NCBI RefSeq assembly: GCF_001047375.1
Contig: NZ_LFVU01000026.1
Location: forward strand, 248,001 to 312,000
Direction: 5' to 3'
DNA: 64,000 nucleotides
Source of the DNA: Clostridium cylindrosporum DSM 605
GTDB taxonomy: Bacteria > Bacillota > Clostridia > Clostridiales > Caloramatoraceae
Position numbers and translations under genes: made by a program
The notes under the pieces: model-generated
Databases searched by the model: none
What the model saw: the letters and a program-made list of their open reading frames with translations, nothing else
Told to the model about the DNA's origin: nothing
Part shown: piece after piece, positions 13,755 to 46,621 of the stretch
Layout of the letters: each line of letters begins with the position of its first letter
Numbering within the stretch: position 1 is the first letter of the stretch

Positions 13755-13790
13755 AACTAATCCTCCTTTTCAACATGATTTACTATCGGA

Positions 13791-30178: not shown

Positions 30179-30532
30179 ATGAAAAAAGTATTAATCGTAG
30201 ATGATATGTTGTTTATGAGAAACTTATTAAAAACAATGCTTGAAGAAAATGGATTTGAAGTTGTTGCTGAGGCTGGGGATGGTTTAGAAGCAATAGAAAA
30301 GTACTCAGAATTTAGACCAGATGTTGTTACTATGGATATAACAATGAAGGAAATGGATGGAATAGAAGCAATTAAAGGAATTCGTGAAATAGATGAAAAC
30401 TGCAAGGTGGTAGTAATTTCTGCACTTGGAATGGAAAGTATGGTTATGAAGGCAATCGCTGCAGGTGCAAAGGGATTTATTAGAAAACCATTTGAAAAGG
30501 AAAATGTTATCAAAACACTAAATGAGATTTAA
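30179..30532 (+). CDS. CheY-like single-domain response regulator
   Basis: A 117-residue receiver domain alone: acidic pocket VDD (residues 8-9), phospho-acceptor Asp in VVTMDITM (about 54) and Lys in IRKPF (about 102). The TMDIT form is shared with the CheY at 44466. It is the first gene of the stressosome/chemosensory cluster, preceded by GGAGG. With no output domain it must act by protein contact, most likely with the histidine kinase or Hpt proteins downstream, or with a motor if the cell has one. Confidence 0.92.
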   Translation: MKKVLIVDDMLFMRNLLKTMLEENGFEVVAEAGDGLEAIEKYSEFRPDVVTMDITMKEMDGIEAIKGIREIDENCKVVVISALGMESMVMKAIAAGAKGFIRKPFEKENVIKTLNEI

Positions 30533-30573
30533 AGGTTCTAATATAAAAATTTATGTCGATAAAAGGAGAAGAT

Positions 30574-31428
30574 ATGATTAGTAGTTTAGAAGAATTAAAT
30601 AATATATTATCAAGTGGAGAAAATGATGTTTTTCAGATGTGGCTTGAAGAAATAAATACAAATAAGGTTGTTAAAAAAGGATTATTCTCTGAAAGAGATA
30701 TTATTGATATTTCAAGTAAGTTATATAGGACATTTTTAAAGTTAAGAGATTATGATTTTAATAATGGATTAGTAGAGATTACAACATCTTCAGGTAAGGA
30801 ATCTCTTGAGGAATTTTCTAAGATAATGGCAATAAAAAATCAAACTCCAACAGCAACAAGTATGTATATATATTCTTTGAAAAGTGTTATGTATAAATTT
30901 TTACAGAAACAAATTGAAGATTCAAGTTTGCTAAATAAGGAGATTTTAAGAACATCTGAGGTTATAGATAAAATGGGGCTTTATACCTTTAATTATTTTG
31001 TTAAGGAAAGAGAATCTATAATTCAAATGCAGCAGCAAGATATGATGGAGTTATCTACCCCTGTAATTAAAGTATGGGAAAATGTACTTGCTATTCCTCT
31101 TATTGGGACACTTGACAGCAAAAGAACACAAATGATTATGGAAAAACTTCTTGATATGATAGTAACTACATCCTCAAAGGTTGCAATAATAGATATTACA
31201 GGGGTTCCTACAGTAGATACCCTTGTTGCAAATCATTTAATTAAAACAGTAGCAGCTACAAGACTTCTTGGAGCTGAAATAATAATAACAGGTATAAGCC
31301 CAGTTATCGCTCAAACGATGGTACACTTAGGAATTGATTTGTCAGAGGTTATTACAAAGGCGGTTATGGAAGATGGAATAAAAACTGCACTTGAAATATG
31401 TGACTTTAAAATTCTTAAATTGAAATAG
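30574..31428 (+). CDS. RsbR-like stressosome sensor (STAS domain)
   Basis: About 284 residues. The N-terminal helical domain (1 to about 155) is of the RsbRD/non-heme globin type and is the presumed sensor. The C-terminal STAS domain carries AIIDITGVPTVDTLVANHL and TGISPVIAQTMVHLGID, with the two Thr regions that RsbT phosphorylates in B. subtilis RsbR. AAAAGGAG stands before ATG 30574, so the in-frame ATG 30553 is not the start. With RsbS and RsbT next to it, it should build the stressosome shell. Confidence 0.9.
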   Translation: MISSLEELNNILSSGENDVFQMWLEEINTNKVVKKGLFSERDIIDISSKLYRTFLKLRDYDFNNGLVEITTSSGKESLEEFSKIMAIKNQTPTATSMYIYSLKSVMYKFLQKQIEDSSLLNKEILRTSEVIDKMGLYTFNYFVKERESIIQMQQQDMMELSTPVIKVWENVLAIPLIGTLDSKRTQMIMEKLLDMIVTTSSKVAIIDITGVPTVDTLVANHLIKTVAATRLLGAEIIITGISPVIAQTMVHLGIDLSEVITKAVMEDGIKTALEICDFKILKLK

Positions 31429-31449
31429 TATAAAATGGAGTGTTGATTT

Positions 31450-31869
31450 ATGGTAAAGATACCTATACTAAAAATTAATGATATTTTGATTGTTTCTATA
31501 CAGGAGGAATTAACCGACAAGGTAGCTCTTAAATTTCAGATGGATATTTTAAATAAAATATATTCATCAAAAGCAAAGGGAGTATTAATGGATATATCTT
31601 TACTGGATATCGTAGATTCATTTTTAGGAAAGGTTATATCGGAAACTGCAAAAATGATTAGACTTTTAGGGGCAGAACTTGTTCTTGTGGGAATGAAACC
31701 AGAGGTAGCTATAACAATAGTAGAACTCGGCCTTGAGATTAATGGAGTACATACATCATTAAACATTGAAGATGGAATAGAAAATCTAAATAACATTATA
31801 AAATCAAAGGCAATTCAAGAGATTACTAGGGAAGAGTTGCTGAAAGAGGAAAAACATGCTGAGATATGA
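31450..31869 (+). CDS. rsbS: RsbS-like stressosome scaffold protein
   Basis: A 139-residue STAS protein. LMDISLLDIVDSFLGKVISETAKMIR is nearly the B. subtilis RsbS sequence, with the phosphorylated Ser in IVDSF. VGMKPEVAITIVELGLEI follows. It has a C-terminal extension of about 20 residues that overlaps the next gene by 14 bases. It forms the icosahedral stressosome core with RsbR and holds RsbT until phosphorylated. Confidence 0.93.
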   Translation: MVKIPILKINDILIVSIQEELTDKVALKFQMDILNKIYSSKAKGVLMDISLLDIVDSFLGKVISETAKMIRLLGAELVLVGMKPEVAITIVELGLEINGVHTSLNIEDGIENLNNIIKSKAIQEITREELLKEEKHAEI

Positions 31870-32251
31870 AGTTGTTATTGAAGAAGAGAAGGATATTGTT
31901 ATTGCAAGACAAGTAACAAGAGAGGCTGCAAAACAAATGAAATTTGGAATAGTTGACCAAACTCGAATTATAACTGCGGTAAGCGAACTTTCAAGAAATA
32001 TATTTCAGTACGCGGGAAAAGGTTATGTTGTATTAGAGGAAGTTGTAGAAAATAATAAACATGGTCTTATGATATCCTTTGTTGATGAGGGACCTGGAAT
32101 CCAAGACATTGATTATGTAATGCAGGGAGGAAACTCCTCAGGTAATGGAATGGGACTAGGCTTATGTGGAAGTAAAAGGCTTATGGACAATTTCTCTATT
32201 TGCTCACAGCTTGGCAAAGGTACTATTGTTATTATAAAAAAGTGGCTTTAA
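31856..32251 (+). CDS. rsbT: RsbT-like serine/threonine kinase (HATPase)
   Basis: A 131-residue GHKL-type kinase: N box SELSRNIFQYA, G1 box DEGPGIQD, G2 box GNGMGLGLCGSKRLMD and final GTIVIIKKWL. It phosphorylates RsbR and RsbS; once freed it activates a downstream partner. In Bacillus that is RsbU, but no RsbU, RsbV, RsbW or sigma B gene is present here, so the freed kinase must have another partner. Translation overlaps rsbS. Confidence 0.93.
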   Translation: MLRYEVVIEEEKDIVIARQVTREAAKQMKFGIVDQTRIITAVSELSRNIFQYAGKGYVVLEEVVENNKHGLMISFVDEGPGIQDIDYVMQGGNSSGNGMGLGLCGSKRLMDNFSICSQLGKGTIVIIKKWL

Positions 32252-32255
32252 TGAG

Positions 32256-33311
32256 GTGAGAAAGATAGAATCATTTGAAATCAAAAATGAATGGGATATA
32301 GGCAGTGCAAGAAGATATATAGCTAATAGCTGTAGAGATTTAGGCTTTAATGAAATTGAAGTAGGAGAAATCTCTATTGTAGTTAATGAGCTTTGTACAA
32401 ATATTATTAAGCATGGATGTGTTGAGGGAAAGATAAAATTTAGTAAAATTAATAATGGTTTAGAAAGTGGCATTGAAATAATCTCCCATGATAAGGGCCC
32501 TGGTATTGAAAATATCGATGAGGTTATTAAAGATGGATTTTCTTCAAAGGGAACAATTGGGGGAGGGTTCGGTGCTATAAAGCGGTTAATGGATGATATG
32601 GAGGTATACTCTCAATTTAATGGAGATAGCTGTAATTATAACCCTTATAGTTATAATCTTAAGTTAAATTGTACAGGTACGATAATAGTTGCGAAAAAGT
32701 GGTTAAAAAGCGTAAAAAATATTGCAAGTCAGGATATAAAAATTAGCGTTATGAGTAGACCCCATCCAAACAGTAATGTAAATGGAGATGGGTATTATAT
32801 TAAGCACTTAAAGGGTAAAAGTATTATTGCGGTTATTGATGGAATAGGTCATGGCACTGAAGCTAATAAGGCATCTAAAAAGGCATGTGAATTAATAGAA
32901 GAAAATATTAGTAAATGTCTAAAGGAAATAATATTAAGCTTAGATACAGGATTAAGGCATACAAGAGGTGTGGTTATAGGATTATTAGCTATTGATGAAT
33001 TTAAAGGGGAGCTTACCTATGTTGGAATTGGCAATATTCAATTTACATATATTTTTGAGGATAATGTAGTTAGGATTTTACCTACAAGTGGAATATTAGG
33101 AGTTACCCCTAATAATAAAGTAAGGATTCAAAAAGTATTCTATCAGAAGGGATCAATTTTAATTATGAATACAGATGGCATATCTAATAAATGGCAAATT
33201 GATAACTATTCTAGGGAAGTTAGAGATAATCCTTCTTTTCTTTCAAATAGTATTCTTAAAGATTTTGGTAAAAATAATGATGATTCTACTGTTTTAGTAG
33301 CAGTTCTCTAG
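32256..33311 (+). CDS. fusion of RsbT-like kinase domain and RsbX/SpoIIE-type PP2C phosphatase
   Basis: A 351-residue protein. Residues 1 to about 150 are a GHKL ATPase of the RsbT/RsbW type (N box VVNELCTNIIKHG, DKGPGIENIDE, GGGFGAIKRLMD, GTIIVAKKW). Residues about 160-351 are a PP2C domain like RsbX: VIDGIGHGTEANKAS with the metal Asp, NTDGIS and the final NDDSTVLVAVL. Kinase and opposing phosphatase in one chain could set the phosphorylation level of RsbR and RsbS. The start is GTG 32256, four bases after the rsbT stop, with a poor ribosome site, so translational coupling is likely. Confidence 0.88.
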   Translation: MRKIESFEIKNEWDIGSARRYIANSCRDLGFNEIEVGEISIVVNELCTNIIKHGCVEGKIKFSKINNGLESGIEIISHDKGPGIENIDEVIKDGFSSKGTIGGGFGAIKRLMDDMEVYSQFNGDSCNYNPYSYNLKLNCTGTIIVAKKWLKSVKNIASQDIKISVMSRPHPNSNVNGDGYYIKHLKGKSIIAVIDGIGHGTEANKASKKACELIEENISKCLKEIILSLDTGLRHTRGVVIGLLAIDEFKGELTYVGIGNIQFTYIFEDNVVRILPTSGILGVTPNNKVRIQKVFYQKGSILIMNTDGISNKWQIDNYSREVRDNPSFLSNSILKDFGKNNDDSTVLVAVL

Positions 33312-33318
33312 GTGACTT

Positions 33319-34314
33319 ATGTATAGGGATAATTTTGAACTTTATTTAGCTATAGCACACCTAGTGAACCTTAAAGAAAGTCTTGAGCATAATAATTCTA
33401 AGTTAACAGAGGAACTTATAAAAACAAACCAAGATATACTAGCCTTACTACAGGAATTTGAGAATATTAATTTAGGTGATGTAGAAAAAAATGGATTCTT
33501 AGAAAACTTAAAAAGAACTAACAAGGAGCAAATGGAAAAAATAAGAGAACAGGAAAAAGCCCTTGTTCAAGCTGATAAAATGGCATCATTAGGGCAGCTT
33601 ATTGCGGGTATTGCCCATGAAATAAATAATCCTACAACATATATAAAGTCAAATATTGAGCTTATGAAAAGATATTGGAAAGTGATTTTACCATGTATTG
33701 ATATAAATAATAATAAAAAAGCTAAGATTGTAGTAGATGATGTAGAGGAAGTTCTAAATTCAATGTATAGGGGAACCGATAGAATAGTTGAAATTGTTAG
33801 TGGACTTAAGTACTTTTCAAGACAAGAAAAAGCCGATTTTAAACCTTTAAGCTTAAAGGATTGTATTGATGATGCCTATAAACTTGTTAAAAATGAATTA
33901 ATGAAAAATAACATAGATTTTAAAAGTTTTATAGAATTAAATCAACATATGATATTTGGAGCAAAGCAACAAATAGAACAAGTTATTATAAATCTAATAT
34001 TAAACTCTATTAATGCTATTAAATCTATTAGATCTAAGAATAATTTAAGTGGATTAATAGAAATTAAAGCATATCAAAATGATGATAAAGATTCTATTTG
34101 TTTATCTATAGAAGATAATGGATGTGGAATAAAGCAGGAAGAGATTAGTATGGTGTTTAATCCTTTTTTTACAACTAACCTTAAGGATGGGGGCACGGGA
34201 CTCGGCCTTTCAATTGTTTATGGAATTATAGAAGAACATGGTGGAAGTATAAATGTTATTAGTGAAGAAAATATATTTACTAAGTTTACAATTATATTCC
34301 CATTATATAAATAG
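33319..34314 (+). CDS. cytoplasmic sensor histidine kinase
   Basis: A 331-residue protein without membrane segments. A coiled coil (about 10-80) leads to HisKA with the phospho-His in IAGIAHEINNPTTY (His100) and a HATPase domain (N box LILNSINAI, G1 DNGCGI, G2 GGTGLGLSIVYGI). AQADKMASLGQL-style sequence before the His box is typical of stress-sensing kinases with bound sensor partners. There is no sensor domain, so input probably arrives by contact with the stressosome proteins encoded just upstream. It probably phosphorylates the receiver at 35724 or the Hpt-STAS protein. Confidence 0.92.
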   Translation: MYRDNFELYLAIAHLVNLKESLEHNNSKLTEELIKTNQDILALLQEFENINLGDVEKNGFLENLKRTNKEQMEKIREQEKALVQADKMASLGQLIAGIAHEINNPTTYIKSNIELMKRYWKVILPCIDINNNKKAKIVVDDVEEVLNSMYRGTDRIVEIVSGLKYFSRQEKADFKPLSLKDCIDDAYKLVKNELMKNNIDFKSFIELNQHMIFGAKQQIEQVIINLILNSINAIKSIRSKNNLSGLIEIKAYQNDDKDSICLSIEDNGCGIKQEEISMVFNPFFTTNLKDGGTGLGLSIVYGIIEEHGGSINVISEENIFTKFTIIFPLYK

Positions 34315-34331
34315 GCGAAGAAGGTGAATAT

Positions 34332-35702
34332 ATGAATAACTTAAGTCAAATGTACTTTGAAGAAACAGATGAACTTATACAGGAAGCTGAATACTATATG
34401 TTAGAACTTGAAAAGGAATATACTCAAGACAATATAAATGGTGTATTTAGATGTATTCACTCAATAAAAGGTTCATCGGCATCAATGGATTTTGTTGAAA
34501 TAGCTAATCTATCCCATAGTCTAGAGGATATGTTGAATTTTATAAGAGAGGGTAAGTTAGAGTCAAGTCAGCTTATTTTAAATCTATGTTTTGAGGCAAT
34601 AGATCAGGTGAAGTTTTTAGTTAATCATATGAAGAGTAATAAAGAGGTTAACTTAAATAGCATACAGTTAAATAAGTTAAATGAAATTCAAAGCTCAATT
34701 GAGGATATCCTAAAGGGAGTGTCCCTTGGTGTAAGTGAAGAAAAGGAAGAAACTCTAACATTTAAGGTGAATAGTGGCAACTACATTAATAAGTTTTTCA
34801 TTAGAGTTTCCTTTGATGATGATATGTTTCATACAGTTACTAGATTTTTAGTAGTTAATACTATTAATGAACTAGGTTTTTTAGAATATTCAAGTCCTGG
34901 ACTTTCTTTAATAGGTAATCCAAATTACGAAGAGTTTACGGAATATTATGAGTGTATTTTAAATACAAACTATGAGGAAGAGGATATACACATTAAACTT
35001 AACATAAATTATGTTAATAATGTACAAGCTATAAACCTATCAAATGATTCATTAATGAAAGCTGATTTTAAAGCTACTAAGGAACATAAAGAGGAGCTTG
35101 ATAAAATTCTAAGTGACTTTAAAAATATAGGAAAGATACTTAAAACAAATAGTTTAGAAGCTAGTTATTATGAGTTAGAAAAGTCATTTATGTTAAGTTT
35201 AGAAAGCTTTGATTCTTTAGATAATGATGAATATTTAGGTCATTTAGTGAGGGAAATTTATAATTTTGAAGAATTATTCTTTATTTGTGCTAAAAGCCAT
35301 AATGAAAGGGCCATTGAGGAATTTAAGAATTTAAGATATATACATAACAAGTTATCTGAAAAGATATATACAGCTTTAAGAAACAAGGTTATTTTTAAGT
35401 ACCATAAATTAAAGTGTGAAAAGACAGTTTTAAATGAGTTAAAGAATTTCTTTGAAAAACTTGATAAAGAAATGTTTAAATATATTTTAGTAGATATAAG
35501 TAATTTAGAAATTATTCAGGTTGATGAATTAAAATACCTTATAAATATATATAAAAGTCTAAGGGAAAAAAACATTAGTATAGGCTTTATAAACAGAGGA
35601 ATATATAAAAAAAGGATATTTAATATTTTTGACTCTATTGATGAGATATGTTGTTTCAATCAGTATAATGATGAGTTTTCAGCAGTTAAAGAGTGCATTT
35701 AA
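34332..35702 (+). CDS. Hpt domain protein with C-terminal STAS-like domain
   Basis: A 456-residue protein. Residues 1-110 are an Hpt domain of the CheA P1 type with phospho-His in FRCIHSIKGSSASM (His43). A middle region of about 230 residues resembles no family that I know (mixed alpha/beta, then coiled coil). The last 80 residues (KYILVDISNLEIIQVDELKYLI) look like a STAS fold with a hydrophobic strand and the loop where STAS Ser/Thr sit, here without Ser. It couples phosphorelay (Hpt) to stressosome-type scaffolds (STAS), a natural bridge in this cluster. Confidence 0.72.
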   Translation: MNNLSQMYFEETDELIQEAEYYMLELEKEYTQDNINGVFRCIHSIKGSSASMDFVEIANLSHSLEDMLNFIREGKLESSQLILNLCFEAIDQVKFLVNHMKSNKEVNLNSIQLNKLNEIQSSIEDILKGVSLGVSEEKEETLTFKVNSGNYINKFFIRVSFDDDMFHTVTRFLVVNTINELGFLEYSSPGLSLIGNPNYEEFTEYYECILNTNYEEEDIHIKLNINYVNNVQAINLSNDSLMKADFKATKEHKEELDKILSDFKNIGKILKTNSLEASYYELEKSFMLSLESFDSLDNDEYLGHLVREIYNFEELFFICAKSHNERAIEEFKNLRYIHNKLSEKIYTALRNKVIFKYHKLKCEKTVLNELKNFFEKLDKEMFKYILVDISNLEIIQVDELKYLINIYKSLREKNISIGFINRGIYKKRIFNIFDSIDEICCFNQYNDEFSAVKECI

Positions 35703-35723
35703 GTAATAGGGAGGAAATAGATT

Positions 35724-36134
35724 ATGAAGCAAAGTTATAAAATATTGATAGTAGACGATGAAAGTGAAATTCTTGATTCCTTAAGAAAAAATCTTACTTT
35801 AGAAGGATACAGTGTAGACATAAGTTCAAATCCCTTAGAAGCTATAGAAAAAGTAAAGAATAATAAGTATCATATAGTTTTAACGGATATAGTTATGCCG
35901 GAAATGGACGGTATAGAACTTCTAAGAGAAGTTAAAACCTATGATTCATTAACACAGGTAATAATGATGACAGGATACTCAACTATGGATAAAACACTAC
36001 AATCCTTAGAATATGGTGCAAATGATTATATTTTAAAACCATTTAAAAGCATAGAATTTGTAATGGATATAATAGACTATTCTATTCAAAAACTAGAAAG
36101 ATGGAGAGAGTCTATTAAGGGTATGATTAAATAA
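35724..36134 (+). CDS. response regulator, single receiver domain
   Basis: A 136-residue receiver: VDDES at the start, phospho-Asp in VLTDIVMPEMDG (about residue 54), Thr in MMTGYSTMDK and Lys in YILKPFK. A C-terminal helix of about 20 residues extends past the usual end. There is no DNA-binding domain. It follows the Hpt-STAS gene by 21 bases, so it is the likely last step of the histidine kinase branch. A terminator closes this sub-operon. Confidence 0.9.
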   Translation: MKQSYKILIVDDESEILDSLRKNLTLEGYSVDISSNPLEAIEKVKNNKYHIVLTDIVMPEMDGIELLREVKTYDSLTQVIMMTGYSTMDKTLQSLEYGANDYILKPFKSIEFVMDIIDYSIQKLERWRESIKGMIK

Positions 36135-36147
36135 TAAGTAGAATTTT

Positions 36148-36181
36148 TAAGAGGGAGTTTAAACTCCCTCTTATTTTTTTG
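36148..36181 (+). terminator. terminator ending the stressosome sub-operon
   Basis: AAGAGGGAGTTTAAACTCCCTCTTATTTTTTT is a perfect hairpin followed by a T run. Confidence 0.93.
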
Positions 36182-36499
36182 TAGTTATCTAGAGGATTAA
36201 GCATGATTATCTATAGGATAATTACTTATAGAAAATAATTGTTATTAAGCATACCTTGGTACTCTGAGTAAATATATTCTAGTTTTTCAATTAAAAGTTA
36301 ATATTTTTTAAATAAAGTTAATATTTTTTAAAAAAATGGTTAAAAAATATTTACTAGAAATTAAAAAAAGCGTATTATTTTAGTATAAATTAGCACATAA
36401 TGTTTAAAAATGTATTAATTTGGATTAAAACTATTTAATACAATTATATATGTATATATACATATGAGTAAGGTACAAGAAAAACTATGGGGGTATAGT
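36182..36499. other. intergenic region ahead of the chemosensory sub-operon
   Basis: About 310 bases, very A/T-rich, with a direct repeat TTAATATTTTTTAAA (36298-36331, two copies). No ORF or riboswitch is recognised. It must hold the promoter for 36500 onward. Confidence 0.45.
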
Positions 36500-38449
36500 A
36501 TGGAAAAGAAACTTGCAAAACCAACTAATAATTTACGTTCTGATTCAAGGCCAAATCCAAACACTGAAAATGGTGGAGGGGATATAGAAAAAAAGAGACA
36601 GCTTGCTAGAAAACAAGCGCAGGAAAAAATGAGAGCAAGAACTTTAGCTAAACAACAACAAATAGCAGAAAGAATTGCTACAGCTACTGAACAACTAGCA
36701 GCTGGTATTGAACAGGCAAGTGCTGCATCTAGAGAACTTGGAGCTACTACTGAGGAAATCGCAACTGGGGCTAATCAAGCTTCATCAGCTGCAGAGCAAA
36801 CTAGAGCCGCTATAAATCAAATTAATAAAACAGCAATAGTATCAGATAAAAGAGCTCAAGAATCAATTGAAAGAATAAATGCTGCACAAACACTAGTTAT
36901 AAATACATCTAAGGAGATTGAACTTCTTGTTAATGGAATAAAGGAAGCAGCTGAAACTAATCTAGGATCAGTTGAGCTTATAACAGAACTTGAAAAGCAA
37001 TCTAATGAGGTTGGGGATATTGTACAAGCTGTAGTTAGAATAGCGGATCAAACTAACTTACTTGCATTAAACGCTGCAATAGAAGCAGCAAGAGCAGGTG
37101 AACATGGTAGAGGTTTTGCAGTTGTAGCTGACGAGGTTAGAAACCTTGCAGAGATATCAGAAAAGTCAGCTAGAAATATAACGGAATTAGTAGATGAAAT
37201 ACAAAAAAATGTAAAGATTGTTGTTAAGGATATAGAAACAGCGGGAAGTGCAGCTAATGAAGAAGTGGAAAAAGCAAAGGAGATTACTTCAGATTTAATT
37301 GTAATAGAAGATGATATGGCTATTGTACAACAAGCAGTTGCAGAGGTTTCAGAAAATGCAGTTGATACTAACACTGGAGCCGGAGAATTCCTAGCTATTG
37401 CAGAGCAAATAGCAGCTGCAGCTGAGGAACAAGCAAGCGCTGCAGAGGAAGTAGATAGATCACTAGAGGAACAAAACAAAGCATTTGAAGAGCTAAATAT
37501 AGCAGCATCTGAACTTTCACACATGTCAGAGGAGCTTAAGATATCAACAGATGTTCAAAAGTCATCAGAGGTATTAGCAGCTACTGCAGAGGAACTTTCA
37601 GCAAATGTGGAGGAATCAAATACTGTTGCGAGCCAAATAATGCAGGCAATTGAACAGGTAGCAATAGGAGCAGAAGCTCAAGCTCAACTTACTGATAAAG
37701 CATCTTCTCTTTCAGCGAGATTAGCAACTGCATCTGCTCAGATGAGCGGAAGAGCAATAGAATCAACAGAAAAGGTAGCGAAACTTCAAGCTTTACTAGA
37801 GGGTAATAAGTCAAGAGTTGATAACTTAATTCAAGGGATATCTTTATCAGCTGAATCTAGCATTGAGTCTTCAGGTAATATAAAAGTGCTTGAGGATACA
37901 ACAAGAAAAATAGACAAAATCGTTGATGCAATTGTTAATGTTACAATACAAACAAATATGCTTGCAGTAAATGGATCTATTGAAGCTGCAAGAGCAGGAG
38001 AGTTTGGAAGAGGTTTCTCAGTTGTAGCAGGAGACATAAGAACTCTTGCTAATGAATCAGCAGAAAATACAGATCAAATAAAGGATTTAGTTAGGGCAAT
38101 TCAAAGCCAGATTTTAAGAGTTGCAACAGATATTGAAGTTTCAGGTAGAACATCATTAGCAGAGGTAGAAAAGGCAAAGAAAATTACATATGGCCTTAAT
38201 CTAATACAAGATGATATGATTACGATTCTATCAGGGGTTACTGAGGTTGCAAAATCTGCAGAGGAATCTATGAAGGCTCTTGAACAAGCTAGAACTGGAG
38301 TTGAACAAATATCAGCAGCAGCTCAAGAGGCAGCAAGATCTACAGAGGAAGCTACAAATGTTGCAATGGAACAATCAAGTGGTATGCAGGAACTTGCTGA
38401 AGCAATTGAAGAGATATCAGGGCTTGCAGATGAACTGCAAAATATGTAA
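36500..38449 (+). CDS. soluble chemoreceptor with two signalling domains in tandem
   Basis: A 649-residue, wholly helical protein with no membrane or sensor domain. Two full MCP signalling hairpins follow one another, with tips [23 protein letters not shown] (near 180-215) and [23 protein letters not shown] (near 485-520). Both keep the CheA/CheW contact residues; the second tip has N-G-S in place of N-A-A. The tandem could fold as one intrachain four-helix bundle, standing in for a receptor dimer. ATG 36500 is chosen because GGGGGT (36489-36494) precedes it; the longer start at 36464 has no ribosome site. It probably nucleates a cytoplasmic array with the CheW and CheA encoded next. Confidence 0.9.
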
Positions 38450-38467
38450 TAAGCGGGAGGTAGAGAA

Positions 38468-39934
38468 ATGGCTTCTCTAGAAACAGATTTAAATATATCA
38501 GAGAGACAACTAGTTACCTTCCACCTTGGAAACGATGAATTTGGAGCAGACATAATGAATGTGAAAGAAATAGTAAGAGTTTCTGAGATAACTAAAGTAC
38601 CTAATGCACCTTTTTATGTTGAAGGAATTTGTAATCTTAGGGGAAAAGTACTTCCAATAATTGATGGAAGATTAAGGTTTAATATGCACAAAAAGGATAA
38701 GGATGAAAATAGCAGAGTACTTGTTATAGATATAAATGGTAAGGCAACTGGGGTAATTGTAGATAGAGTTTCAGAGGTAATAAGAATAAATTCATCAGAG
38801 ATTGAAGCAACTCCAAGTATTATGAGAAATGAGAATATGGATTATCTAAATGGGGTAGTTAAATTAGATAGTGGAAAAAGGCTTATAATGCTTCTTGACC
38901 TAATTAAAGTACTAAATGTTGAGGAAATTCAAAGTATTATTACAGATGGTAGCGATATAATTGATGGTGTTGCAGAGTTTAAAGAAAAGGAAAATATTGA
39001 TGAGGAACATCTAGTTTCTTTTATACTAAACAAGGAAGAGTATGCAATAGATATAATGCAGGTAAAAGAAATTATAAGGATTATTGATATTGTAAAGGTT
39101 CCTAATTGTGAAGGCTATATAGAGGGAGTCGTTTCTATAAGAAATAACCTAGTTCCAATACTAAACCTAAGAAAATACTTTGGAATGGGAGAAATTGATA
39201 TAACTGACCATACCAGAATACTAATTGTTGATATGGGTGCATTTACCTGTGGAATCATGGTTGATAAGGTATCTGAGGTTATACGTGTTTCGAAAAATGT
39301 TGTAGAGTCACCTCCAAATGTTTTCTATGATACAGAGGGGCAGCAGCTAAAAGGGGTTGCTAAGCTAAATGAAGGGAAACGATTAATTCTTCTTTTAGAA
39401 CCAACAAAGTTATTAACTCAGGATAAAATCGCAGGTATTACAGAGGTTGAGTTAAGCTTAGAAGACCAAGGTGTAAAAAGCATTGAAAAGCAGCTTTTAG
39501 ATGAGGAACAGTTAGTAACATTTAGGTTAGCTGATGAAGAGTATGCTATAAATATAGGATATGTAGAAGAGATTAATAGAATGACGGAAATAACAGAAAT
39601 TCCAAGGGCTCCAATATTCATCAAAGGGATTGTAAACCTAAGAGGGAATGTAATACCTGCACTTGACCTTAGAAAGTTATTTAGTCTTGAAGAAAAAGAG
39701 ATAACAGATGCTACAAGAATAATAATAGTTGATATAGATAATAGAAGAACTGGAATTATAGTAGATGCTGTTTCAGAGGTTTTAAGATTTGAAAAAAGCC
39801 TTATAGAGGAGCCTTCAAGTATACTTAGTAGCGGAGTAGATGCGGAGTATATTGATGGTGTTGGAAAACTAGACGAAGGAAAGAGAATGGTATTAATACT
39901 TAATCTTTTTAAGGTTCTAAACTTTAATAAATAA
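38468..39934 (+). CDS. triple CheW adaptor protein
   Basis: A 488-residue protein with three complete CheW domains: residues about 15-160 (LVTFHLGNDEFGADIMNVKEI), about 175-325 (LVSFILNKEEYAIDIMQVKEI) and about 345-485 (LVTFRLADEEYAINIGYVEEI). Each keeps the NLRG/SIRN and RILIVD-like strands. One CheW domain normally links a receptor tip to CheA; three in one chain could bridge several tips and stiffen an array without the usual CheW rings. It pairs logically with the two-tip receptor before it. Confidence 0.93.
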   Translation: MASLETDLNISERQLVTFHLGNDEFGADIMNVKEIVRVSEITKVPNAPFYVEGICNLRGKVLPIIDGRLRFNMHKKDKDENSRVLVIDINGKATGVIVDRVSEVIRINSSEIEATPSIMRNENMDYLNGVVKLDSGKRLIMLLDLIKVLNVEEIQSIITDGSDIIDGVAEFKEKENIDEEHLVSFILNKEEYAIDIMQVKEIIRIIDIVKVPNCEGYIEGVVSIRNNLVPILNLRKYFGMGEIDITDHTRILIVDMGAFTCGIMVDKVSEVIRVSKNVVESPPNVFYDTEGQQLKGVAKLNEGKRLILLLEPTKLLTQDKIAGITEVELSLEDQGVKSIEKQLLDEEQLVTFRLADEEYAINIGYVEEINRMTEITEIPRAPIFIKGIVNLRGNVIPALDLRKLFSLEEKEITDATRIIIVDIDNRRTGIIVDAVSEVLRFEKSLIEEPSSILSSGVDAEYIDGVGKLDEGKRMVLILNLFKVLNFNK

Positions 39935-39957
39935 TATTTAAAATAAGAAACATATAA

Positions 39958-40002
39958 AATGTGAGAATACTGAAAACTAAAATGTTTAAGGTATTTTCAC
40001 AT
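39958..40002. repeat. inverted repeat before cheB
   Basis: ATGTGAGAATAC and GTATTTTCACAT pair at 11 of 12 positions. It lies where a longer cheB frame would be coding, which supports the later cheB start. Confidence 0.5.
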
Positions 40003-40026
40003 TTATCTATAAAAAGGGTGGGAACA

Positions 40027-41106
40027 TTGTTAAGTAAAATTAAAGTATTATTAGTAGATGATTCAGCATTAATGAGAAGAGTTATTAAAGAAATATTGAT
40101 AACAGATAGTGAAATAGAAATTGTTGGGGCGGCTAGAGATGGCGAAGATGCAGTGCAGAAGGTTAGAGAATTAAGGCCAGACGTTGTTACAATGGATATT
40201 AACATGCCGGTTATGGATGGATTAACATCTATGCAATATATTTTAAATGATTTTCCTGATATACCAGTTATTATATTAAGCTCCTTAACTACAGCGGGGG
40301 CTTTAACAACATTTGAAGCATTAGAACTAGGAGCCTTTGATTATATTGGAAAGCCATCTGGAACTGTATCTGCGGATTTACATATTATTGGTAGGGAAAT
40401 AATACAAAAGGTAAAAGCAGCTTATAAAAGTTCAAGAAAAAATAGATTGAAAAGAAAGATTCATGAGTCTAAAAGAACTATAGTTGAAACTGTAAGTTGT
40501 TTAGAAAAAAGTAATCCTAGGAATAGTGTATCTAAGGTTGTAGTTATTGGAATTTCTACTGGAGGACCTAATACATTAATGGAAATAGTTCCTCATATAC
40601 CTAGTAACCTTAAGGCGTCAATAATTATTGTACAGCATATGCCACCTACATTTACGAGCACCTTTGCAAAGAGAATTGATTCTGCAAGTCCATTTAGATT
40701 TAAGGAAGCTGAAGCAGGTGATGCTATTGTTGATGGACAAGGATTTGTTGTTCCTGGAGGGTATCATTTTATATCTAGGGAAAATAAATATAAAGGTGGT
40801 CATATAGTAAGGCTAACAGAGGAGCCGAAAACACTTTTTATACCATCCGTTAACATAGTTATGGAGTCTGCACTTGAATGCTTCGGAGCTAAAAAGACCA
40901 TTGGAGTGATTATGACAGGCATGGGGGATGATGGAGCAGATGCAATGGTTAAAATAAGAAAAGCAGGTGGAGTTACAATAGCTCAAGATGAAAAAACATC
41001 AACTATTTTTGGGATGCCTAAGGAAGCTATAGAAAGAGGGGGAGCTGGAATTGTAGTTCCTTCATATAGAATTCCACAGGAAATAATTAGAGCAGTAAAT
41101 AATTAA
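40027..41106 (+). CDS. cheB: CheB protein-glutamate methylesterase
   Basis: A 360-residue CheB: receiver domain (VDDSALMRRVIKE, phospho-Asp in VVTMDINMPVMDG), linker, and catalytic domain with the Ser-His-Asp triad in GISTGGPNTL, IVQHMPPTFTSTFA and MTGMGDDGAD. It removes methyl groups from receptor Glu residues when phosphorylated by CheA. The frame is open from GTG 39961, but AGGGTGGGA lies directly before TTG 40027, so I use this start. Together with CheR it provides adaptation for the cytoplasmic array. Confidence 0.92.
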   Translation: MLSKIKVLLVDDSALMRRVIKEILITDSEIEIVGAARDGEDAVQKVRELRPDVVTMDINMPVMDGLTSMQYILNDFPDIPVIILSSLTTAGALTTFEALELGAFDYIGKPSGTVSADLHIIGREIIQKVKAAYKSSRKNRLKRKIHESKRTIVETVSCLEKSNPRNSVSKVVVIGISTGGPNTLMEIVPHIPSNLKASIIIVQHMPPTFTSTFAKRIDSASPFRFKEAEAGDAIVDGQGFVVPGGYHFISRENKYKGGHIVRLTEEPKTLFIPSVNIVMESALECFGAKKTIGVIMTGMGDDGADAMVKIRKAGGVTIAQDEKTSTIFGMPKEAIERGGAGIVVPSYRIPQEIIRAVNN

Positions 41107-41138
41107 ATATAAGGTGAAGGATACAATTTCCTAGGTTT

Positions 41139-41234
41139 ATGGCGATAAAAGAACAGAAAATAATAATTAGAAGATTAGCTAATGTGTTTACTGAGCTATT
41201 ACTAGATTGGAAGTGTAAATATGAAATTAGATGA
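41139..41234 (+). CDS. possible small ORF between cheB and cheR
   Basis: An open frame of 31 codons (MAIKEQKIIIRRLANVFTELL and 10 more) that overlaps the cheR start by 14 bases. It lacks a well-placed ribosome site. Basic and hydrophobic residues alternate as in a helix. It may simply be spacer. Confidence 0.2.
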   Translation: MAIKEQKIIIRRLANVFTELLLDWKCKYEIR

Positions 41235-42057
41235 TGTCCTTTACAAGAAATATACCGACTTAATCTACAGCAAGACAGGTCTTTCATATGAACTTAATAA
41301 AAAGTACTTTGTTGAAAAAAGAATAGAAAACTGTATGGAGGATATAAATATTAGTGATTTTTTAGAGTATTATCACTTTATAAGATTTTCTCCAAATGAA
41401 AAAGAATTTTATAAATTAATTAATGAATTAACTGTAAATGAAACATACTTTTTTAGAGACTTTCCACAGCTAAGAAATTTTGCAGAGGATGTACTTCCTA
41501 TTATAGTTAAGGAAAAGGAAAGAAAAAAAGATTATAGTATAAAAATATGGAGTGCTGCATGTGCAACAGGAGAGGAAGCCTATACACTTGCAATAATTTT
41601 GCTTGAAATGCTTGATAAGCCAGAGGTTTGGGATATTAAAATTATTGCTTCAGATATAAATAATAAGGTTCTTGATGCTGCTAAAAAAGGCATATATGAT
41701 GATAGGGCAATGAGGGAAATGCCACAGGAATATTTAGTTAAGTATTTTACAGTGAAAGGTGATAGATACCATATTGATTTAAAGGTTAAAAAGTATGTAG
41801 AGTTTAAAAGGTTAAATTTGTTTAACTCAGATGAAATATTTAAAATAGGTAATTGTGATTTTATATTTTGCAGAAATGTACTTATATATTTTAGTACTGA
41901 ATCAAGAAAAAAGGTAGTGGAAGCCCTTTACCATAGTTTAAGTCCTGGGGGATTTATTTTTCTTGGTCATTCTGAATCAATTGCTAGAATTTCATCTAGC
42001 TATAAAGCACAAAAAATTGGAGATACTATTGTTTATTCAAAACAATTACATAAATAA
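41221..42057 (+). CDS. cheR: CheR receptor methyltransferase
   Basis: A 278-residue CheR: N-terminal helical domain, then the SAM fold with WSAACATGEEAYTLAI (motif I), IIASDINNKVLDAAKKGIY, FIFCRNVLIYF and GGFIFLGHSES. It transfers methyl from SAM to receptor Glu. No receptor in this window ends with the NWETF-like docking peptide, so it must find its substrates by the signalling domain itself. GGAAGTGTAAAT precedes ATG 41221. Confidence 0.93.
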   Translation: MKLDDVLYKKYTDLIYSKTGLSYELNKKYFVEKRIENCMEDINISDFLEYYHFIRFSPNEKEFYKLINELTVNETYFFRDFPQLRNFAEDVLPIIVKEKERKKDYSIKIWSAACATGEEAYTLAIILLEMLDKPEVWDIKIIASDINNKVLDAAKKGIYDDRAMREMPQEYLVKYFTVKGDRYHIDLKVKKYVEFKRLNLFNSDEIFKIGNCDFIFCRNVLIYFSTESRKKVVEALYHSLSPGGFIFLGHSESIARISSSYKAQKIGDTIVYSKQLHK

Positions 42058-42111
42058 TAGTATAAATTAGTACTACAATAGAAGAACTTGTTGGAAAAGG
42101 GCGTGTATAAA

Positions 42112-44403
42112 ATGACTTATATTTTTGAAAACAGGGACTTAGACATATTAAATTCATATATAGAGGAAGCAGTAGAATACTTAGATGCCTTAGAAGAAGG
42201 ATTACTTAACCTTGAAGCAAACACAGAAAAAAGTGAAGAAATAATAAATGACGTATTTAGAATGGTTCACAGTATAAAGGGAGGCTCATCCTTTCTAGGG
42301 CTTGTATGTATTACGAAGTTAAGTCATTCAATTGAAAATACATTAGATAGTTTAAGAAAGAAAAAAATCCAAATTAGTAGAAATATAATTGATAATCTAA
42401 TAGAGGGAATAGACTTGCTTGGAGGACTTATATATGATATTAGATCTAAAATTAAAGATATAGATGATAGTAAGTCAGAGGACAATTTCCAAGTTGTATT
42501 AGATAATGAAGATAAAGTAGATGAGCTTATAACAAAAATTCAGGAAATTGTTGATATTAATAAAAATCCTAAGGACATAGGTGAATTAACTATAGAATCT
42601 AATAATCTAACTTCAGATGATAATAATGAAATAAGTGATAAAAGTACTACCAATCTCCATGATGAAAATTCTGTTGATATTTTGGAATCTGATGAATTTA
42701 AAAATACGGTTTTAAAAGAGATTAAGGATCAGTTTGTTGAGGAAACTTTCGAGCATTTAGAAAGAATCGAAAGTGAGTACTTAGTTAAACTTGATAAAGA
42801 CAGTGATGATAGTGATGCTATGAATAATATGTTTAGAAGTATACATAGCACCAAGGGAGGAATTGGGGTACTGTTAAGTGTTTTAACAGCGGTAAACCCT
42901 ATCTTATCTATTGCAAAAAATATATCCCAAGTAACCCATTCATTTGAGTCTTTACTTGTGATGTTTAGAGATAAATTAATTATATTTACAAAGGAAATGG
43001 TAGATTTAAGTTATGAGGTTGTTGATTACTTAAAGGCCTGCGTTAGTATTATTAATAATAATGAGTCAACTAATTTACCTAAGGATTCAATTTTAAGTAA
43101 GATAAATAAAATCCTAGAGCAAGGATTAGAATCATCAGATAAAAGAGATTTAAGTGAAGAATCTACAAAAAACGAAGTAGTAAACAATGTAGCAAGTGAT
43201 AATTTAAAAAGAGATACTAGCTTACAGAGTATAAGAGTTAATCAGGATAAGATAGATAATATGATGAATATGATTGGGGAGTTAATGATAACCAAAAATT
43301 CATTTATGCATCTAGCTAAAAAGTTAAGTATAGAATATGACATTCCAGAACTTGCTAAGGAAGTTAAGGAAATTGGAGGCTCAGTTAATAGAATATCCGA
43401 TGAACTTCAAAATGCTATTATGTCAATTCGAATGATAGAAATAAAAAATGTATTTCAGAAAATGCCAAGGATTATCAGAGATGTTTCTCAGGTTAGTAAT
43501 AAAAAGATTAATTTAATAACAGAGGGAGAAACAACAGAAATAGACAAAACAATCATTGAACAAATAAGTGATCCACTTGTTCATATAATAAGAAATTCAG
43601 CTGACCATGGTATTGAAAGTTCAGAAAAGAGAAGAAGTAAAGGAAAGAATGAAATAGGAACAATATTTTTAAGAGCATACAACAAAAACAAATACGTTTA
43701 TATTGAAGTAGAGGATGATGGTAAGGGAATAGACCATGAGGAAATAAAGCAAAAAGCTATTGAAAAAGGTTTTGTTAGTGTTAGTGATGCAAACAAGTTA
43801 AGCAAAAGTCAAATACTTAGTTTGATATTTATACCTGGATTTAGTACCGCAAAAAAGGTAACAGAAATATCAGGTAGAGGGGTAGGTATGGACGTTGTTA
43901 AAAGTAATATTACAAGTATTAGTGGAACTATAAGTATTGATAGCGAGGTAGATAAGGGAACTAAAATAACAATAAAACTACCTTTAACCTTAGCTATTTC
44001 TAGAGGGCTTTTAGTTGGAAGTCAAGGTCAGACTTATATAATACCTATCGAAAACGTAGTTGAAACTGTAAAAATTAATAATAATAATATTTATGAATTT
44101 GGGAAAAAGCACTTTACTCATCTTCGAGGAGATGTAATTGGTATAGAGTGGTTAAGTAGGATTTTAAATATTGGACAAGGTTCAGTTGTAAATGAAGAAT
44201 TGAACATAGTTATAATTTCTAACGGAGTAGATAAAGTTGGAATTGTAGTAGACAAGTTAGTTAGTGAACAGGAATTTGTAATAAAGCCATTAATAGATTA
44301 TCTTGCTAACATTCCTGGTATTTCAGGTTCAACGATTTTAGGAGATGGACAAGTAGTACTTATACTAAATGCTGGGGACATTATGAAAATGGCAGCATAT
44401 TAA
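42112..44403 (+). CDS. cheA: CheA histidine kinase with two Hpt domains
   Basis: A 763-residue CheA. Two P1-type Hpt domains are seen: FRMVHSIKGGSSFL (His53) and FRSIHSTKGG (His245). Then the P3 dimerization helices (IRVNQDKIDNMMNMIGELM), P4 kinase (HIIRNSADHGIE, EDDGKGIDHEE, STAKKVTEISGRGVGMDVV) and P5 CheW-like regulatory domain (SRGLLVGSQGQTYIIPIENVVE). A P2 domain is not obvious. Two Hpt domains could serve two receivers (CheY, CheB, or the stressosome-side regulators). TTG 42088 is in frame, but AAAAGGG sits before ATG 42112. Confidence 0.93.
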   Translation: MTYIFENRDLDILNSYIEEAVEYLDALEEGLLNLEANTEKSEEIINDVFRMVHSIKGGSSFLGLVCITKLSHSIENTLDSLRKKKIQISRNIIDNLIEGIDLLGGLIYDIRSKIKDIDDSKSEDNFQVVLDNEDKVDELITKIQEIVDINKNPKDIGELTIESNNLTSDDNNEISDKSTTNLHDENSVDILESDEFKNTVLKEIKDQFVEETFEHLERIESEYLVKLDKDSDDSDAMNNMFRSIHSTKGGIGVLLSVLTAVNPILSIAKNISQVTHSFESLLVMFRDKLIIFTKEMVDLSYEVVDYLKACVSIINNNESTNLPKDSILSKINKILEQGLESSDKRDLSEESTKNEVVNNVASDNLKRDTSLQSIRVNQDKIDNMMNMIGELMITKNSFMHLAKKLSIEYDIPELAKEVKEIGGSVNRISDELQNAIMSIRMIEIKNVFQKMPRIIRDVSQVSNKKINLITEGETTEIDKTIIEQISDPLVHIIRNSADHGIESSEKRRSKGKNEIGTIFLRAYNKNKYVYIEVEDDGKGIDHEEIKQKAIEKGFVSVSDANKLSKSQILSLIFIPGFSTAKKVTEISGRGVGMDVVKSNITSISGTISIDSEVDKGTKITIKLPLTLAISRGLLVGSQGQTYIIPIENVVETVKINNNNIYEFGKKHFTHLRGDVIGIEWLSRILNIGQGSVVNEELNIVIISNGVDKVGIVVDKLVSEQEFVIKPLIDYLANIPGISGSTILGDGQVVLILNAGDIMKMAAY

Positions 44404-44465
44404 AAGAACTTGTATGTTTATATAAAGCAATTAATAAAAAATAAGTTACAAAAAGGGGATTATAT

Positions 44466-44834
44466 ATGGAAAGTAATAGAATTTTAATAGTAGATGATTC
44501 TCCAATGATACATAGCATAATAAAGAGAGCATTAGAACCTAATGGATTTGTGGTGTGTGGATGTGCTAAAAATGGAAAGCAAGGTATAGAACAGTTTAAT
44601 GAATTAAATCCAGATTTAATTACAATGGATATAACTATGCCTATTATGGATGGACTTTGTGCATCTAGGGAAATAATGAATATTAATCCTAATGCAAATA
44701 TACTTATGCTTAGTGCAATGGGAGATGAAGAGGTAATGAGTGAAGCAAAGGGAATAGGGGTAAAACATTTTTTAAAGAAGCCTTTTAAAGAAGATGAAAT
44801 GCTTGAAGCTGTAAGAAATATTTTAAAGGGGTAA
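44466..44834 (+). CDS. cheY: CheY response regulator
   Basis: A 122-residue receiver with VDDSPMIHSIIKRAL, phospho-Asp in LITMDITMPIMDG (about residue 54), LSAMGDE and Lys in FLKKPF. It lies between cheA and the CheX genes, its kinase and its phosphatases. AAAAGGGG precedes ATG 44466. Confidence 0.93.
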   Translation: MESNRILIVDDSPMIHSIIKRALEPNGFVVCGCAKNGKQGIEQFNELNPDLITMDITMPIMDGLCASREIMNINPNANILMLSAMGDEEVMSEAKGIGVKHFLKKPFKEDEMLEAVRNILKG

Positions 44835-44838
44835 AAAA

Positions 44839-45318
44839 GTGATGGATAGAAAATTAATAGAAGCTTTTACGGTTAATATACTTGAAATTTTTGATCAAAT
44901 GATTGGAATTAAAATTGAAGCTGAAAAGGAAATTAATGAGGACTCTGATAGCATAGTATCATATGGAGTTTCAAGTATTGTTTCATATACTGGGGAGCTA
45001 AAGGGAAGACTTCTTTTAGATATGGAGGCAAATCTTGCTATAAGTATTGCAAAATGTATTACAGGAGAAGAGTTTAGTGATGAAAGAGAAGATATGGTAT
45101 TAGCCTCAGTTTCAGAATTAAATAACATAATAGCGGGTAGTGCAATAACTCAACTAAATAATGATTTAAAACTTAAGTTGAGACTTGCTCCACCAGTTGT
45201 ATTTGCGGGAAAAGGTGCAGTGGTTTCTATTCCGAAGATTAACTCCATATCAGAGATGTATATATCACCATATGGTAAACTTAAAATAAACATAGCCTTT
45301 GAAGGAGGGCTAGATTAA
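44839..45318 (+). CDS. CheX-like CheY-P phosphatase
   Basis: A 159-residue CheX/CheC-family protein with one active-site helix ASVSELNNIIAGSAI carrying the E-x2-N pair that attacks the aspartyl phosphate of CheY. One such helix is the CheX form. It overlaps the next gene by one base. It differs clearly from the two near-identical CheX paralogues after it. Confidence 0.85.
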   Translation: MMDRKLIEAFTVNILEIFDQMIGIKIEAEKEINEDSDSIVSYGVSSIVSYTGELKGRLLLDMEANLAISIAKCITGEEFSDEREDMVLASVSELNNIIAGSAITQLNNDLKLKLRLAPPVVFAGKGAVVSIPKINSISEMYISPYGKLKINIAFEGGLD

Positions 45319-45779
45319 TGGATGTAAAGAATATTAATCCTTTTTTAGACTCATTAAAAGGCATACTTGAACAGTTTGGTGTAACGGATATTAAGGTTGC
45401 GGATTTATCTAGAAAAGAAAAAATGCTTGTAGAAAAGGAAGTTAGCGCTATTATCGGGATAGTAGGTGACTTAAAGGGAAATGTATCCTATTGTATGTCA
45501 GAGGATACTGCAAAAAAGGTTATTTCAGCTATGATGATGGGGATGTGTATTGAAGAGATAGATGAGATAGGAAGAAGTGCAGTAGGGGAACTTACTAATA
45601 TGATTACAGGAAATGCAATTACTAGTATGTGTGAAAATGGTCGTAGTATAGATATAACTACACCATCTATGGTATTTGGTAGAGATATGTATTTTATTAT
45701 TAGTACAGTTGATACAATAAGTGTAATTATGGATACATCAATTGGAGAATTTGAAGTAAATATAGGCTTAGAGATTTAG
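45318..45779 (+). CDS. cheX: CheX-like CheY-P phosphatase
   Basis: A 153-residue protein. The catalytic helix is SAVGELTNMITGNA (E-x2-N). SEDTAKKVISAMMMGM and the strand MDTSIGEFEVNIGL are shared with the copy at 46160. It is the last gene before a terminator. Having several CheX proteins suggests that more than one receiver is dephosphorylated (CheY, 30179 and 35724 are candidates). Confidence 0.88.
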   Translation: MDVKNINPFLDSLKGILEQFGVTDIKVADLSRKEKMLVEKEVSAIIGIVGDLKGNVSYCMSEDTAKKVISAMMMGMCIEEIDEIGRSAVGELTNMITGNAITSMCENGRSIDITTPSMVFGRDMYFIISTVDTISVIMDTSIGEFEVNIGLEI

Positions 45780-45816
45780 ATTACATGCAGGAATATAAAT
45801 AATTATATTCTTAGGG

Positions 45817-45858
45817 CAAAACACCCCTTTGACAGAAATGTCAAAGGGGTGTTTTAAT
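45817..45858 (+). terminator. terminator after the second CheX gene
   Basis: AAAACACCCCTTTGAC pairs perfectly with GTCAAAGGGGTGTTTT across AGAAAT. Confidence 0.93.
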
Positions 45859-46159
45859 ATATATTTTCTTTGGTTAGATAGAGAATGAATTAATTCTTTG
45901 AAAATATTATTATAAGTTTGGGTAAAGTTTATAAATAATTCTGAAGTAATGTACGATAAATGTATAAATTAGCATATATTACAGAATATTGAAAATAAAA
46001 TAATATATTATTAAAGAAATTCTCTAAGAAAGTTTTTCATCTAAAGGTATTTATGCACCATTCAGTGAGGTTAGGTGTAAAATATATTATAGGAAATTAT
46101 TTGAATAATTAAAGTGAGTTTTATTTGTAATATGTGTATGTGAAAAGTAGGAGGAATAT
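45859..46159. other. intergenic region between CheX copies
   Basis: A/T-rich, about 300 bases. It must contain a separate promoter for the gene at 46160 because a strong terminator precedes it. No other element is seen. Confidence 0.45.
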
Positions 46160-46621
46160 ATGGATATAAAAAATATTGATCCATTTTTAGATTCTATGAA
46201 AAGTGTACTTGGGCAGTTTGGTATAACAGATATTAAGGTTTCAGGGATTAAGAAAAAAGAGGAAATGTTTGTAGGTAAGGAAGTAACATCTATAATAGGG
46301 CTTATAGGAGATTTAAAGGGGAATGTATCCTACTGTATGTCTGAGGATACAGCTAAAAAGGTTATATCCGCTATGATGATGGGAATGTCTATTGATGAGA
46401 TAGATGAGATGGGAAGAAGTGCAGTAAGTGAACTTACTAATATGATTACAGGTAATGCAGCAACGATTATGGGTGAGAATGGATGCAGTGTAGATATATC
46501 AACACCTTCAATGATATTTGGAAAAGATGTACATCTTATGATAAGTAAAAATGAAGTAATTAGTGTTAATATGGATACATCTATTGGAGAATTTGAAGTA
46601 AACATTGGTCTTAAGGTTTAA
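46160..46621 (+). CDS. CheX-like CheY-P phosphatase, recent duplicate
   Basis: A 153-residue paralogue of the previous CheX; long stretches are identical (GDLKGNVSYCMSEDTAKKV, MDTSIGEFEVNIGL). The active helix is SAVSELTNMITGNA, so it should be active. It has its own promoter region and terminator, which separates its control from the operon. GTAGGAGG precedes ATG 46160. Confidence 0.88.
   Translation: MDIKNIDPFLDSMKSVLGQFGITDIKVSGIKKKEEMFVGKEVTSIIGLIGDLKGNVSYCMSEDTAKKVISAMMMGMSIDEIDEMGRSAVSELTNMITGNAATIMGENGCSVDISTPSMIFGKDVHLMISKNEVISVNMDTSIGEFEVNIGLKV

Follow-up and report, generated by a model that had tools for sequence, protein, structure and literature searches.

We analysed a cluster of 17 open reading frames (ORFs), all on the + strand, at positions 30179-46621 of a 64,000-nt window of Clostridium cylindrosporum DSM 605 (the window is the whole stretch of DNA analysed, and positions follow its numbering). 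This cluster encodes a stressosome, a histidine kinase and a cytoplasmic chemosensory array that very probably make up one signalling system, not yet studied. The first eight genes are separated by only -14 to 21 bases. They encode a lone receiver of 117 residues (RR1, 30179..30532; Pfam Response_reg), RsbR (RsbRD_N plus STAS, 30553..31428), RsbS (a single STAS domain, 31450..31869), the GHKL switch kinase RsbT (31856..32251), an RsbT-like HATPase domain fused to an RsbX-like phosphatase of the SpoIIE/PP2C type (32256..33311), a soluble HisKA-HATPase histidine kinase with an N-terminal coiled-coil linker, LTEELIKTNQDILALLQEFE (33319..34314), a protein in which CheA-type P1 and P2 domains without a kinase precede a helical domain and a C-terminal STAS domain (34332..35702; hereafter Hpt-P2-STAS), and a second lone receiver (RR2, 35724..36134). 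A gap of 329 bases containing an intrinsic terminator (a strong hairpin at 36148-36173) then leads into a run of eight genes: a soluble chemoreceptor (MCP) with two hairpin tips (36464..38449), a triple CheW (38468..39934), CheB (39961..41106), CheR (41221..42057), a CheA that has two Hpt domains but lacks P2 (42088..44403), CheY (44466..44834) and two CheX proteins (44839..45318 and 45318..45779). A third CheX (46160..46621) lies beyond a second, still stronger hairpin at 45818-45855, and is therefore its own transcription unit.

Domains were assigned with Pfam, supplemented by matches to solved stressosome proteins (RsbR, RsbS), orthologue identity (RsbT), structure-database matches (the phosphatase fusion), fold matches (Hpt-P2-STAS), hydropathy (the receptor) and neighbourhood in relatives (RR2). 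The co-directional genes and domain names proposed in the earlier note on this DNA, made from its letters, are all borne out by Pfam and by the ORF coordinates; its single terminator has become two. The catalytic residues of the receivers, the Hpt domain and the kinase are present by inspection.

Sequence alone marks both RsbR and RsbS as genuine stressosome proteins. RsbR matches Listeria RsbR with an E-value of 7e-33, and both phospho-Thr positions are aligned and kept; RsbS matches its B. subtilis namesake at 1e-31, again with the phospho-Ser position aligned and kept. RsbT has a HATPase domain whose ATP-binding boxes are conserved between clusters, and is 60-66% identical to the RsbT of four other stressosomes linked to chemosensory (che) genes. 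The PP2C half of the RsbT-like fusion is closest to Moorella 3zt9 (7e-18) and B. subtilis RsbX (3w40; 3e-15). In Heliobacterium mobile the corresponding half (L098:14191-15171) has altered active-site motifs, DASGRG and TTAG, and may be an inactive phosphatase. The absence of RsbU, RsbV, RsbW and sigma B, noticed earlier within the cluster, extends to the whole genome (2.7 Mb, 96% complete): apart from the cluster, the sole RsbW-type gene is that of SpoIIAB, which sits with SpoIIAA and sigma F; the sole other SpoIIE-type phosphatase is SpoIIE itself; and no second SpoIIAA/SpoIIAB/sigma-type set that could serve as RsbU/RsbV/RsbW/sigma B was found.

The array is complete, by Pfam, for the CheA kinase, CheW, CheB and CheR. 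Its receptor has two MCPsignal stretches and a maximum hydropathy of 1.07, versus 2.90 for a membrane MCP, which indicates that it has no membrane segment. The second Hpt domain of CheA is real, and no P2 domain was found in this protein by Pfam. We considered whether an insertion after the second phospho-His is a defect and rejected the idea, as orthologues share it. The genome also encodes FliG and, in the contig region that holds it, another che operon, as well as a third CheA and about 30 receptor genes. A third cluster in this genome has the order CheA-CheB-CheR-MCP-MCP-CheW (L048, G000:C28:252912-260585).

The protein that may connect the two assemblies had been described as an Hpt-STAS protein. 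Both domains are there (Hpt by Pfam; STAS below the Pfam cut-off and recognised by its fold), but the description was incomplete: Pfam also identifies a CheA P2 receiver-binding domain, in this protein as in its orthologues, and a helical domain follows. In a structure model built from 13 orthologues (mean pLDDT 81; pTM 0.46, so that domain packing is unreliable), the domains match CheA P1 (Z 20.8, 1.7 Å over 128 residues), CheA P2 (Z 12.6, 1.8 Å over 83 residues) and STAS domains (Z 13.0, 2.1 Å over 101 residues; Z 11.7-11.8 for RsbS-type structures). The helical domain that links P2 to STAS is a bundle of four helices; its fold matches are generic only (best Z 12.1), and we accordingly assign it to no family. 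The CheA domains P3-P4-P5 (dimerization, kinase and CheW-like) are absent by Pfam and model folds; the helical bundle and STAS domain stand in their place. Its phospho-His, His43, is invariant among orthologues. From this distribution of domains, the P2 docking function appears to reside on Hpt-P2-STAS and not on CheA. The Ser/Thr acceptor of the SpoIIAA/RsbV-type DS(S/T)G motif is not conserved (the 13 orthologues show V, S, N, T, Y, E or A there), so that the protein is unsupported as a phosphorylatable STAS target of RsbT or PP2C. Phage matches to the Hpt protein are weak and partial.

RR2 adjoins Hpt-P2-STAS in che clusters, and in Aneurinibacillus terranovensis (L099:9736-11571; a che cluster without a stressosome) the two form a single ORF of 611 residues. 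Both the adjacency and the fusion support phosphotransfer between them. Orthologues of RR1, 53-61% identical, occupy the corresponding clusters of relatives: in several they precede the double-tip MCP, and in the Clostridium-family genome G039 the gene stands at the far cluster end.

The key observation to emerge from other genomes is that the stressosome and the array recur together, a co-occurrence on which the earlier note had made its proposal depend. We used the C-terminal part of Hpt-P2-STAS as the marker for cluster searches; in the scan of named genomes this protein gave nothing as a single-sequence query, and an alignment of the triple CheW was used instead. The marker is present in 6 of 225 other genomes of the order, each time with the double-tip receptor and triple CheW; five of these six clusters also hold CheB, CheR and CheA, and RR2 adjoins the marker. 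Besides the window, six genomes from several families carry RsbS, RsbT and the same kinase clustered with MCP, triple CheW, CheB, CheR and CheA: G039, one of the six genomes of the order with the marker; G398 (Petroclostridium sp. X23) and G476 (a metagenome-assembled genome, MAG, of Eubacteriales), both from the class; and, from the scan of named genomes, Pseudobacteroides cellulosolvens, Heliobacterium mobile and H. chlorum. With that of the window, this makes seven such clusters. In G039, RsbR-RsbS-RsbT-RsbT/PP2C-kinase stands in the same run as the che genes; in the other five, cheB and cheR flank the stressosome genes, i.e., the two halves are interleaved in one operon. Of the module, only RsbS, RsbT and the kinase remain in G476, a genome in which no RsbR turned up.

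The kinase follows the stressosome: it is present in 7/7 che clusters with a stressosome and in 1/13 without. The latter comprise those of Clostridium magnum, C. thailandense, C. bowmanii, two further Clostridium, Lutispora, Paenibacillus, Cohnella, Gordonibacillus, Aneurinibacillus, a Megamonas MAG, a Bacillota MAG (G355) and G250. Twelve of these 13 readable clusters thus lack the kinase too, and the lone exception (Megamonas) has a shortened form without the N-terminal coiled coil; Hpt-P2-STAS and RR2 are retained. In the G250 cluster (C1:3700242-3711643, L071/L072) MCP and CheA are each split into two ORFs, which suggests decay. With an E-value threshold of 1e-15 or better, RsbT is rare: it occurs in 3 of 226 genomes of the order and in 7 of 391 sampled from the class. 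Four of the seven class-sample RsbT genes lie in a che-linked cluster (Fisher p = 1e-6, phylogeny ignored); the remainder are of other types (G228; and both G313 and G509, which have a large kinase-receiver protein and an RsbX-like PP2C that is separate). G115, from the order sample, and G355 have unlinked stressosome modules. A tree of RsbS, RsbT and the kinase and one of MCP, CheW, CheB and CheR agree on the pairing of G398 with G476. The window and G039 group together in a tree of RsbS and RsbT, a grouping not resolved once the kinase is added; Heliobacterium may be set apart, and the trees are compatible with one or two acquisitions of the stressosome.

Since Hpt-P2-STAS and RR2 are kept in clusters without a stressosome, they are, on these gene contents, components of the array, and RsbR-RsbS-RsbT-PP2C-kinase is an optional input module. 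The one-system proposal of the earlier note therefore stands in part: the linkage is conserved in six genomes, but two proteins that it had placed on the stressosome side belong to the array, and the stressosome and kinase are optional. For the same reason, the terminator at 36.15 kb is not a functional border, as had been supposed: Hpt-P2-STAS and RR2, upstream of it, sit in the che cluster of relatives. Persistence without a stressosome also rules out Hpt-P2-STAS as a stressosome component only, and argues that its STAS domain is not there merely for stressosome docking.

These distributions bear on two other readings of Hpt-P2-STAS. In one, it would mainly be a trans substrate of the array CheA, as CheA3 is of CheA4 in Rhodobacter sphaeroides; the stressosome kinase would be only a source or sink of phosphate on RR2, and flow would run from the array to Hpt-P2-STAS, not from the stressosome to the array. 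We regard both parts of this reading as unlikely, although some points speak for it: in 12 che clusters that have Hpt-P2-STAS, with neither the stressosome nor such a kinase, CheA is the only evident kinase; the array CheA has no P2; and R. sphaeroides offers the precedent of a P1-bearing CheA without a kinase domain in a cytoplasmic cluster (PMC6829392). On the other hand, two P1-type Hpt domains are already part of the array CheA itself, and wherever a cluster has the stressosome, the gene of Hpt-P2-STAS or of RR2 is an immediate neighbour of that of the kinase. In the second reading, the STAS domain of Hpt-P2-STAS would join the RsbR:RsbS shell, and the stressosome scaffold would bring the Hpt domain to the array or sequester it. 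This is improbable: the modelled STAS fold with its RsbS-type matches would suit it, as would a helical bundle preceding STAS, as in RsbR, but the domain shares only about 5-11% identity with RsbS structures and lacks the conserved phospho-acceptor, and the protein persists in genomes without a linked RsbT or RsbR.

How might the stressosome reach the kinase? No sensor domain was found on the kinase by Pfam. In B. subtilis, RsbT orders the coiled-coil linker of RsbU and thereby activates it, and the same authors propose that coiled-coil linkers allow inputs to be swapped with histidine kinases (PMC12143880); this activation mode and the proposed interchangeability support an action of RsbT on the window kinase. 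Furthermore, an RsbT-like domain is fused to a histidine kinase in three stressosome operons, those of G115, Deinococcus radiodurans MP1 and Paraburkholderia sp. D15. Immediately before its phospho-His region, the window kinase has the stretch LTEELIKTNQDILALLQEFEN, which aligns with the Deinococcus linker, LNQELQDTNRGVVALYAELEE, and shares with it an LxxELxxTNxxVxAL-type motif. These fusions, together with the co-occurrence of kinase and RsbT, suggest that RsbT acts on the linker of the kinase. The fusion in G115, which is clostridial, is at L062:279-1532, with no chemosensory genes nearby.

We hypothesize the following path. In other stressosomes, a signal causes RsbT to phosphorylate RsbR and RsbS and then to leave. 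Here, the RsbR/RsbS stressosome would hold RsbT, and the kept residues suggest that RsbT would likewise phosphorylate both proteins upon a signal and depart. Free RsbT would then act on the coiled-coil linker of the kinase; the kinase would phosphorylate RR2, which, judging by adjacency and one fusion, would exchange phosphoryl groups with His43 of Hpt-P2-STAS; and the P2 domain of the latter may dock CheY and/or CheB and pass the phosphoryl group on. CheA, driven by the double-tip soluble receptor, would feed the same receivers, such that a single receiver/Hpt pair collects signals from stress and from the array. The RsbT-like/PP2C fusion would reset the stressosome in the manner of RsbX, and the CheX proteins would drain phosphorylated CheY. 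The cluster encodes no DNA-binding output, and we propose on that account that the end output is probably control of the motor or of motility, the least supported step. The RsbT::kinase fusions and the Hpt-P2-STAS/RR2 fusion point to the order RsbT, kinase, receiver, Hpt-P2-STAS; we infer the direction and the final output.

We consider it reasonably likely that this stressosome without sigma B is an accessory input wired into a cytoplasmic chemosensory array by such a path: the linkage is well supported, and the mechanism is a testable model. Several points weigh against it. Most che clusters of this type have no stressosome, which is hence not required; in C. cylindrosporum a hairpin terminator parts the two halves; and in G355 a stressosome of another type stands elsewhere, unlinked, with none in the che cluster. 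No RsbU_N domain was found by Pfam on the window kinase or that of Heliobacterium (a short divergent domain could escape). Phosphoryl flow is not readable from gene order, and to name CheY, CheB or RR1 as the partner in the third step is to guess. The first two of these points would also suit two halves that are mere neighbours without functional connection, but five genomes have the stressosome nested between cheB and cheR, the same content occurs in differing gene orders and the kinase co-occurs with RsbT, which makes that reading hardly credible; chance neighbourhood was rejected on the first two grounds. Gene linkage alone is symmetrical, and signals from CheA or RR2 could conversely set the kinase or phosphatase that resets RsbR and RsbS, with output through RsbT to other targets. 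This reversed control is very improbable: the candidate RsbT targets encoded nearby are the kinase and the PP2C fusion only, RsbU, RsbV, RsbW and sigma B are missing, and the part that is gained or lost is the stressosome.

A bolder reading, which we put forward tentatively as somewhat less probable than not, is a class of signalling hub whose stressosome shell and cytoplasmic array share one relay (kinase, RR2 and Hpt-P2-STAS), by which stress would directly set the set point of the array and the motor without transcription. If so, two large assemblies normally studied apart would share one phosphorelay, and its three proteins are a small soluble set suited to testing this. For the stressosomes of the many bacteria that lack sigma B, the cluster offers as a candidate output a whole chemosensory array, together with a defined linker protein, and all genes stand in one operon in Pseudobacteroides cellulosolvens, Petroclostridium and Heliobacterium mobile.

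Stressosomes with kinase/receiver modules are already published: HisKA, REC and HPT domains are listed among their downstream modules (PMC9237108). Those modules control PP2C, cyclic di-GMP (c-di-GMP) or kinase/receiver relays, with no MCP, CheW, CheA, CheB or CheR among the domains listed. The literature searched yielded no research paper on a stressosome that feeds a chemosensory array; stressosome, CheA and CheW came up together only in two papers, reviews to judge by title and abstract and neither of them on this link, whereas Pane-Farre 2005 and 2017, which the Vibrio papers cite and which lay outside this literature, could mention it. A close parallel is Vibrio vulnificus VvRsbRSTX-VvD1-VvD2 (PMC9237108, PMC10014275), which also lacks sigma B and has RsbR-S-T and an RsbX-type phosphatase with a histidine kinase and receiver directly after them; its RsbR has a globin sensor whereas that of C. 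cylindrosporum has RsbRD_N, and the phosphatase of the latter is fused to an RsbT-like domain. Loss of the V. vulnificus stressosome or its kinase reduces motility (PMC10014275), a precedent for the output suggested here. Moorella thermoacetica (PDB 3ztb/3zt9) likewise has a clostridial stressosome without sigma B, and among solved structures its phosphatase comes nearest to our PP2C half; this stressosome is reported to control a diguanylate cyclase (Quin 2012, through PMC12143880), a GGDEF protein with the RsbU N-terminal domain. Deinococcus radiodurans MP1 and Paraburkholderia sp. D15 share the order RsbR-S-T-(RsbT/PP2C)-kinase and the same RsbT/PP2C fusion, but their kinases carry their own fused RsbT-like domain and a receiver, and no chemosensory genes were seen within 6 kb flanks.

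The cytoplasmic arrays of R. sphaeroides (CheOp3) and V. cholerae resemble ours in having a soluble receptor, CheA proteins that lack or split standard domains, CheW, CheB, CheR and CheY; the two-tip receptor, triple CheW, Hpt-P2-STAS, HEAT-repeat protein and stressosome are not described in the sections of those accounts used here (PMC3964821, PMC6829392). In Bacillus cereus, RsbK/RsbM (PMC4574943) places a methylated sensor kinase on a stress pathway, so that chemotaxis-like parts also meet stress signalling there; that system controls sigma B and has neither a stressosome core nor an array.

Relatives add further array genes: several encode a HEAT-repeat protein, and some have a second triple CheW with a ParA-like ATPase next to it. 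Neither the ATPase/CheW pair nor the HEAT-repeat protein was found in the window. In Petroclostridium X23 (L069:5965-8479, 13294-15213) this second triple CheW has an N-terminal extension and the pairing is ParC/ParP-like; the same two genes occur in G039, G089 and G355. They resemble the positioning machinery of cytoplasmic arrays (PMC3964821). We do not claim an array ParA orthologue in the C. cylindrosporum genome, where the best match is the chromosomal Soj/ParB pair. Elsewhere in the window, 16974-17987 and 20053-20700 encode two related secreted proteins, which we take to resemble regions of RsgI-type anti-sigma factors and which apparently arose by local duplication.

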